Below, in pieces: positions 5,109-13,837 of a stretch of 64,000 nt of DNA. The notes under the pieces were generated by a model that made no database searches, was not told the origin of the DNA, and saw only the letters and a list, made by a program, of their open reading frames with translations. Source of the stretch: Rufibacter sp. XAAS-G3-1 (GTDB taxonomy: Bacteria > Bacteroidota > Bacteroidia > Cytophagales > Hymenobacteraceae); NCBI RefSeq assembly GCF_013623775.1, contig NZ_JABFAM010000009.1, forward strand, positions 62,001-126,000. The letters are read 5' to 3'. Within the stretch, counting starts at the first letter, position 1. Each line of letters starts with the position of its first letter. The position numbers were made by a program, and so were the translations under genes.

Positions 5109-5116
5109 TATCTTTG
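5109..5116 (+). promoter_or_regulatory. Bacteroidota -7 box TATCTTTG
   Basis: TATCTTTG fits the Bacteroidota TAnnTTTG consensus and lies 39 bp before ATG 5155. A TTG at 5091-5093 is a possible -33 element, but its spacing is shorter than usual. Confidence 0.5.
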
Positions 5117-5154: not shown

Positions 5155-5895
5155 ATGAACCGTATGATCTCGCGTGCCACCGCCGAACAGCTTCTCCAGC
5201 AGATTCTGGACTTGGGGTTACCAACGCACTATGACTATGAGAAACACCGCCTCATCTTGCTGGACGAACAGGAAAACGAACAGGTGTCTTTCCGGCTTCC
5301 GCTCACAACTCCTCCCCTTCAAAACCTTTCTTTACCCCAGGCTCAATTGGTTCAGTATGTCATTCTGCTCATTCAGGCGGGCAACTGCGCCATGGGGTAT
5401 TTTGAGGATGGCGTAAACCTGAACCACAAGGTATTCCGGTCGTACATGGTGCGCAAAAAACAGGGCAAAAGCCAGATCAAGTACCTGAAAACCAAAGGCA
5501 AGTCCCGGGCGGGTTCCCGGGTGCGGCTGGGCGAAACAGCGGAGTTCTTCGAGAACATCAACGGCCGGTTACAGGAGTATTTTGAGCGGCATGAGATTCA
5601 CCGCATCGCGTTGAGCTGTTCCAAAACCCTGCTCCCCTACCTGTATGACTCTAAAACTGCCACGCCCTTTCACAAACGCGACGAGCGCCTCTTCAAAATC
5701 CCAAAACACGTGCACACCCCCATCTACGAGGTCATGATGAACACGAACCGGTTTTTGCAGCGCGGCGAATTGCTGTACGAACCCATTCACCAACCCCTCA
5801 TCACGCAACTGCTCCCCGAAAACCTGAACGAAGAACCAGAGGAAGAAGACGAATTTGAACCAGAAGAAATGGATGATATGGAAGAGCCGGAATAG
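5155..5895 (+). CDS. VLRF1-like (Vms1/ANKZF1-type) release-factor-fold protein
   Basis: 246 residues from ATG 5155. An upstream in-frame TTG at 5104 would overlap the promoter, so I reject it. The core reads QYVILLIQAGN, then HKVFRSYMVRKKQGKSQ (residues 91-107), then KSRAGSRVR, then DERLFKIPKHVHTP. This matches the order of conserved features in the VLRF1 domain of eukaryotic Vms1/ANKZF1: HKxFxxYxVRxKQGxSQ, then SAGSxxRR, then an RxxxIPfxtxxP segment. In that family the Gln of the G-x-S-Q motif is needed to cleave peptidyl-tRNA on stalled ribosomes; here it is Gln107. The C-terminal 25 residues are almost all acidic. There is no zinc finger, ankyrin or signal peptide. Role in ribosome rescue is inferred from the family. 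It is monocistronic. Confidence 0.8.
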   Translation: MNRMISRATAEQLLQQILDLGLPTHYDYEKHRLILLDEQENEQVSFRLPLTTPPLQNLSLPQAQLVQYVILLIQAGNCAMGYFEDGVNLNHKVFRSYMVRKKQGKSQIKYLKTKGKSRAGSRVRLGETAEFFENINGRLQEYFERHEIHRIALSCSKTLLPYLYDSKTATPFHKRDERLFKIPKHVHTPIYEVMMNTNRFLQRGELLYEPIHQPLITQLLPENLNEEPEEEDEFEPEEMDDMEEPE

Positions 5896-13277: not shown

Positions 13278-13601
13278 TCAATCTACGAAGGTTTCTTTGA
13301 TCACCGCTTTGCAAGCAGCTATCTCCGTTGCATTCAGTTTTTCCAGCACTTTTATGATCCTGACTTTATCAATGGTTCTGATTTGGTCAATGACTACCCA
13401 CCCCGTCTGTTTGTTGTGTTTCACCTGCACGCGGGTAGGATAAAGGCGGCTTTTGGTGGTCATGGGCGCCACCACGACGGTTCTCAGGTGGTGGTTCAAT
13501 TCATCGGGCGACACCACTACGCAGGGCCTTGTTTTCTGGATTTCGCTGCCCATGGTAGGGTCTAGGTTCACCAACACGATCTCATATTGGTTTATGTCCA
13601 T
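13278..13601 (-). CDS. mazF: MazF/PemK-family endoribonuclease toxin
   Basis: 107 residues. It opens INQYEIVLVNLDPTMGSEIQKTRPCVVVSP, the standard MazF/PemK start (xGDIxxVxLxPxxGxEQxxxRPxVVxS); then VVVAPMTTK and a GWVVIDQIRTIDKVRI segment, the conserved strand with D-Q-I-R-x-I-D. Family members cut mRNA at short motifs. Its start overlaps the antitoxin stop by 10 bp (13592-13601), a typical translationally coupled toxin-antitoxin order. It should be expressed from the promoter and operator upstream of the antitoxin. Confidence 0.93.
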   Translation of the reverse strand: MDINQYEIVLVNLDPTMGSEIQKTRPCVVVSPDELNHHLRTVVVAPMTTKSRLYPTRVQVKHNKQTGWVVIDQIRTIDKVRIIKVLEKLNATEIAACKAVIKETFVD

Positions 13602-13837
13602 TCCTCGAAGCTTTCTTCCCCGAACACATCATCTAGCAAGAGTTGGTCTTCTCCCTTCTCGTGCATTTTCTGGAAGGCCTGGCCCCACCCTTTCCGTGGT
13701 GCCTCCACCGGTTTCAGCACAATCTGCCCTTCTTCCAGAATAAGCTCCACTTTGTCTTTGATGTTGTACCTCTCCAAAATAGACTTCGCCAACCGGAGCC
13801 CTTTTGAATTCCCTATTTGAATGATGGATACTTCCAT
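13592..13837 (-). CDS. mazE: MazE-type AbrB-fold antitoxin
   Basis: 81 residues from ATG 13837. The N-terminal half (VSIIQIGNSKGLRLAKSIL and KDKVELILEEGQIVLKP) is the swapped-hairpin AbrB/MazE DNA-binding fold with the characteristic IGNSxGxRxxK motif. The C-terminal 35 residues are acidic and tryptophan-containing, as expected for the toxin-binding tail. It precedes and overlaps mazF. Autoregulation through the palindrome at 13848-13874 is likely. Confidence 0.92.
   Translation of the reverse strand: MEVSIIQIGNSKGLRLAKSILERYNIKDKVELILEEGQIVLKPVEAPRKGWGQAFQKMHEKGEDQLLLDDVFGEESFEEWT

Follow-up and report, generated by a model that had tools for sequence, protein, structure and literature searches.

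Sequence conservation, distribution and candidate role of bVLRF1, a predicted bacterial Vms1-like release factor from Rufibacter sp. XAAS-G3-1

The 64,000-bp stretch of the Rufibacter sp. XAAS-G3-1 genome analysed here (contig NZ_JABFAM010000009.1, positions 62,001 to 126,000; hereafter the window) contains a gene for bVLRF1, a prokaryotic relative of ANKZF1 and of Vms1, the yeast enzyme that releases incomplete chains from stalled ribosomal subunits (Table 1). The family was previously deposited in Pfam and was described in print as bVLRF-1 by Burroughs and Aravind in 2019 (PMC6514570). No published experimental test of its function in bacteria was found in the open-licence literature.

Table 1. 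Features of the bVLRF1 locus (positions in the window; aa, amino acids)
Feature	Position	Strand	Remarks
Perfect 19-bp inverted repeat, 6-base loop	5056..5099		Between the short-chain dehydrogenase gene and the bVLRF1 gene; read from sequence
TATCTTTG, putative -7 promoter match	5109..5116	+	Fits consensus TAnnTTTG; weak
bVLRF1 gene	5155..5895	+	246 aa; ATG 5155, stop 5893-5895; alternative earlier in-frame start TTG 5104
N-terminal part	5155..5340	+	aa 1-62; strand, helix 7-20, strands 24-47; aligned to 6r84_R, outside eRF1/aRF1 ranges
VLRF1 (RNase H fold) domain, predicted catalytic	5356..5763	+	aa 68-203; PF18826 match
Predicted catalytic loop and basic stretch	5425..5529	+	aa 91-125; holds all 14 invariant positions (146 relatives)
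Gln107 codon	5473..5475	+	Equivalent of yeast Vms1 Q295
Acidic C-terminal tail	5821..5892	+	aa 223-246; 15/24 D or E; without terminal Trp

Identity, fold and predicted active site of bVLRF1

The protein matched the Pfam family 'Bacteroidetes VLRF1 release factor' (PF18826) over profile positions 1-139 of 145, with a score of 101.1 bits (E 7e-29) against a cut-off of 27. The second Pfam match, baeRF family 10 (PF18854), remained under its cut-off (13.2 versus 27.1 bits). When a profile of the family was compared with the PDB, yeast Vms1 was the sole match (E 7e-11). An earlier note, made from the sequence alone, had proposed a VLRF1 protein on the basis of three motifs, namely HKVFRSYMVRKKQGKSQ at residues 91-107, SRAGSRVR from residue 117 and DERLFKIPKHVHTP from residue 176; all three are located there, and both the Pfam score, which lies well above background, and the PDB search bear out the proposed identity. 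The stripped-down architecture described in that note was also confirmed, as neither a zinc finger nor an ankyrin domain was detected in Pfam at E values up to 10. No Pfam domain resembling the N-terminal codon-reading or C-terminal Pelota domain of aeRF1 was found in the protein, and searches against NCBIfam (E up to 10), PHROGs and PADLOC (both E up to 1) gave no match.

In comparisons of an AlphaFold model, ribosome-bound Vms1 was ranked first among the matches listed by both Foldseek and VIA-align, in agreement with the eRF1/Vms1 fold that had been expected. The aRF1 structure 4af1 was within 1 Z unit of Vms1 in VIA-align, and Balon and Pelota/Dom34 chains were also among the fold matches. 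The alignment with Vms1 (6r84_R) covers model residues 1-209, and those with eRF1/aRF1 cover residues 62-204 at the widest. A long helix spans residues 119-145, with low confidence at its start. Gln107 resides in a low-confidence loop (mean predicted local distance difference test score of about 50 for residues 101-120), and its spatial position is not fixed by the model; in sequence, the loop follows the domain's third strand and precedes the long helix, as the GGQ loop does.

Yeast Vms1 is described as impaired in function and release when R288, G292 or Q295 is mutated or when S294 is deleted from the GGSQ motif (PMC5989216). In the profile alignment, R288, G292, S294 and Q295 correspond to R100, G104, S106 and Q107 of bVLRF1, the loop of which reads GKSQ (residues 104-107) and fits the GxuQ pattern of the VLRF-1 clade. 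Relatives were aligned as 133 distinct proteins (from 155 locus matches) and later as 146 (from 149). R100, G104, Q107, H91 and Y97 are unvarying in both sets, including the glutamine whose retention had been pointed out earlier. R122 and R124, which follow the loop, are invariant in 146/146 relatives and correspond to the helix arginines of the VLRF-1 clade. In the set of 133, position 106 is occupied by S (120 proteins), A (11) or F (2), and position 105 is Lys in 120.

Acidic tail, distribution and genomic surroundings

The strongly acidic tail noticed earlier in the window protein was found as described, and many relatives carry a related ending. A strict form of the tail (Trp within the last three residues and at least four acidic residues within the last 12) was present in 64/133 members versus 2/807 neighbouring open reading frames (ORFs), a comparison whose p-value is a guide only, because the members are related sequences, and whose control ORFs were called mechanically and may include spurious ones. 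For Trp in the last three residues alone, the numbers were 71/133 and 44/807, respectively. The strict tail is not universal, being missing from 69/133 members. The acidic stretch of the window protein has no Trp at its end; two of its near relatives, L040 and L044, end in GEW. In a rapidly built tree, which contains many long branches and is indicative only, 11 changes accounted for the 66 of 146 rows that were tailed under a looser rule. A pattern of three acidic codons, Trp and stop was matched 32 times in ten genomes; 30 of these matches were read, and ten of the 30 lie at the end of an ORF that is 50 aa or longer. Because nine of these ten are bVLRF1 (the tenth is a 56-aa ORF), the acidic-Trp ending is not a common tag in the ten genomes.

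In the order to which the window genome belongs, bVLRF1 was found in 121/390 genomes, with one over-threshold copy in each (122 places in total, one of them below the cut-off and none with an internal stop). Six of 395 genomes in a phylum-wide sample carry the gene, all within this order. In a class-wide sample, 13/395 genomes are carriers, and seven of them, six from one family, lie outside the order, which rules out strict confinement to it. All seven (L215-L221; genomes G770, G799, G842, G946, G1029, G1047 and G1094) have the loop GKAQ, and none has the strict acidic Trp tail, although L219 ends in GW. Genus g2, which belongs to the same family as the window genome, includes at least 20 genomes without bVLRF1 and none listed with it. 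Among 80 of the 233 relatives, Rufibacter, Pontibacter, Adhaeribacter, Roseivirga, Fulvivirga, Echinicola and Belliella were represented by name, and the best named relative was 80% identical. The window protein matched nothing in plasmids, phages or PHROGs, and a mobile or phage origin was thus rejected.

The bVLRF1 gene is preceded by a short-chain dehydrogenase gene on the same strand and followed by an outer-membrane beta-barrel protein gene on the opposite strand. It is overlapped by one 80-aa ORF in another plus-strand frame (5174-5416); the ORF list of the window contains none on the minus strand that overlaps the gene and reaches 80 aa. The inverted repeat upstream of the gene may be a terminator, although it is absent from the list produced by a terminator scan. 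The consensus of the -7 promoter element in Bacteroidetes is TAnnTTTG, and matches of this type within 150 bp were found in 20/132 relatives versus 9/132 shuffled stretches; a conserved promoter for bVLRF1 was therefore dropped as weak. An operon or partner gene was also rejected, as none of the 30 commonest neighbour clusters (120 loci) keeps the same position from family to family. The largest clusters of neighbouring ORFs comprise 21/120 loci, and genes for a HEAT-repeat protein and an HrpB helicase recur beside bVLRF1 in Cyclobacteriaceae-like loci. Elsewhere in the window, positions 37-2562 encode a PAS/histidine-kinase/receiver protein with near-identical short repeats in series near its N-terminus, and a MazF-like toxin gene (PF02452) is located at 13278-13837 on the minus strand, 7 kb from bVLRF1, preceded by a small ORF that, judged by eye, resembles a MazE antitoxin.

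RqcH and other rescue factors in carrier genomes

The occurrence of RqcH, the bacterial counterpart of Rqc2, which adds alanine tails in ribosome quality control (RQC), was compared between carriers and non-carriers of bVLRF1, the latter being genomes absent from the carrier list of the order. Two probes were used: the Pfam NFACT_N model in 80 genomes of the order, and a profile built from eight RqcH sequences, which aligns to most of the length of Bacillus subtilis RqcH (E 1e-49), in the other 79 carriers. With NFACT_N, matches were obtained in 42/42 carriers and 31/38 non-carriers (30 of the latter over the cut-off; p 0.004), and the second probe matched 70/79 carriers. Overall, RqcH was detected in 112/121 carriers versus 31/38 non-carriers, a difference that is not significant (p 0.064) and that combines two probes without correction for relatedness. 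In the phylum sample, 289/395 genomes had RqcH matches (284 over the cut-off); the five matches listed from members of the class that do not belong to the order were weak (E 3e-5 to 7e-4).

Of the nine carriers without an RqcH match, three are fragmented drafts and six are 99%-complete genomes that belong to genus g9 (G320, G561, G636, G642, G687 and G746); two other g9 genomes do have RqcH. The retention of bVLRF1 in the six g9 genomes without an RqcH match speaks against a strict requirement for RqcH. Bacterial VLRF-1 proteins are described as standalone and as occurring independently of other RQC parts in the relevant passage of PMC6514570, a remark that fits both the gene order and the g9 genomes, yet RqcH is present in most carriers of the order. 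Loss of the tail does not track loss of RqcH, since seven g9 members, two with RqcH and five without, all lack the Trp tail. In three of the five RqcH-less g9 members read, position 105 of the GxxQ loop is R, V or T.

Two RqcH matches contain in-frame stops (G557:C1 near 3409248-3410429 and G767:C12:112892-114454) and reflect either disrupted genes or errors in the sequence. In the window genome, RqcH (contig C9, L160:3617-5176) has NFACT_N and NFACT-R domains. At residues 93-94 of this protein, the pair Glu-Arg is found in seven of eight RqcH proteins of the order and Asp-Arg in one; B. subtilis RqcH has Asp-Arg, a pair that matters for tailing. A gene for a putative metallo-beta-lactamase-fold protein precedes RqcH in six of the eight RqcH loci read (L156 and L160-L164, but not L165 and L166). 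The copy at L160:2853-3614, the only one so checked, was assigned to PF12706 by Pfam, and in L164 a small ORF lies between this gene and RqcH.

MutS2 was matched in 55/55 genomes (52 over the cut-off), including all 30 carriers, with 815 bits in the window genome. Pth and tmRNA were each found in 32/32 genomes, and Pth was thus present in all 25 carriers among them. The window genome holds RqcH, MutS2, Pth and tmRNA beside bVLRF1. Pth can end RQC in B. subtilis, and it may substitute for bVLRF1 in carriers.

Proposed function and comparison with known systems

We consider that bVLRF1 probably hydrolyses peptidyl-tRNA and thereby clears the 50S subunits that ribosome splitting leaves behind (probability roughly 0.6), with both the large subunit as substrate and the hydrolysis itself carried over from Vms1. 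A stalled 70S ribosome would be split, MutS2 being present in the genome, to leave a 50S subunit whose P site is still occupied by peptidyl-tRNA. bVLRF1 would enter the vacant A site of this subunit, the basic stretch KGKSRAGSRVRL would hold 23S rRNA, and the flexible GKSQ loop would reach the peptidyl-transferase centre, where Gln107 would let water cut the peptidyl-tRNA ester and the chain would be freed with or without an alanine tail made by RqcH. The acidic tail could, as a guess, be a docking or tuning element for a partner. A more specific proposal, which we put forward only tentatively and regard as doubtful, is that RqcH-type quality control in Cytophagales-like bacteria has in bVLRF1 a factor dedicated to chain release. 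Its tail, acidic and often ended by Trp, would then dock on a partner, whether RqcH, a ribosomal protein or a protease, in the way that the C-terminal motif of Vms1 does with Cdc48, and in g9 bVLRF1 would have persisted after the loss of RqcH by releasing chains without a tail.

It is unlikely that bVLRF1 instead rescues whole 70S ribosomes as a codon-independent hydrolase, similar to ArfB and independent of split 50S subunits. The catalytic logic would be the same, and the retention of bVLRF1 in the six g9 genomes, its single Pfam domain and the lack of a partner gene at a fixed place are all consistent with such a role. However, ArfB has a basic C-terminal tail for the empty mRNA channel, whereas the tail of bVLRF1 is acidic, and the closest homologue, Vms1, is reported to work on the 60S subunit (PMC5989216). 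Vms1/ANKZF1 has also been presented, in a passage of PMC11317155, as an endonuclease that cleaves the 3'-CCA end of tRNA, and the active-site loop is common to Vms1 and bVLRF1. That bVLRF1 would cut tRNA in this manner on stalled subunits, rather than hydrolyse the ester, nevertheless appears improbable: Burroughs and Aravind argue to the contrary from the conservation of GxuQ (PMC6514570), and G and Q are kept in 133/133 relatives, although conservation alone is not decisive.

Conflict-driven rescue has been proposed for other release-factor paralogues (PMC6514570), and the patchy spread of bVLRF1 in the order and the proximity of the MazF-like gene could point to a factor that restores ribosomes blocked by toxins or antibiotics. 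The window protein has no match in PADLOC, plasmids or phages, the commonest identified neighbours are not defence genes, and a link between the MazF-like gene and bVLRF1 is not established; such a role thus seems quite improbable. Very improbable, in our estimation, is a role without catalysis, as an A-site plug or a hibernation factor resembling Balon or Dom34, despite the presence of Balon and Pelota/Dom34 chains among the fold matches. The loop glutamine is described as missing from Dom34 and most baeRF families (PMC6514570), whereas Gln, R and G are invariant in 146/146 bVLRF1 relatives, which is the pattern predicted for an active hydrolase and not for a plug.

The reading of bVLRF1 as a hydrolase of split 50S subunits bears on the end of bacterial RQC, which is thinly known and for which, according to the relevant passage of PMC11317155, a dedicated chain-release factor has not been identified so far. 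bVLRF1 is a candidate for this role that is open to testing, both in vitro and in environmental bacteria: a close relative of the eukaryotic terminator, it is found mostly in RqcH-holding genomes, every carrier examined for MutS2 or Pth has the factor sought, and one genus retains bVLRF1 without detectable RqcH in near-complete genomes. It also bears on the origin of eukaryotic Vms1.

The window protein agrees with the published bVLRF-1 family (PF18826) in the curated profile, the extent of the domain and the GxuQ motif, and nothing essential differs from its description in the passages of PMC6514570 that concern it; the acidic Trp-ending tail and a genome-by-genome comparison with RqcH do not appear in the text on bVLRF-1 there. 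The members of baeRF family 10 also retain the glutamine according to the same source, and this family gave only the sub-cut-off match here. With Vms1/ANKZF1 (eVLRF-1), bVLRF1 shares the catalytic domain, the R-x-x-x-G-x-x-Q loop and the fold over model residues 1-209. Vms1 is a multi-domain protein, whereas the window protein consists of 246 aa without a matched zinc finger or ankyrin domain, has an acidic C-terminal tail and would meet a bacterial ribosome. Pth (PF01195), the RQC release enzyme of B. subtilis, would perform the same chemical job as that proposed for bVLRF1, with a fold unrelated to VLRF1.
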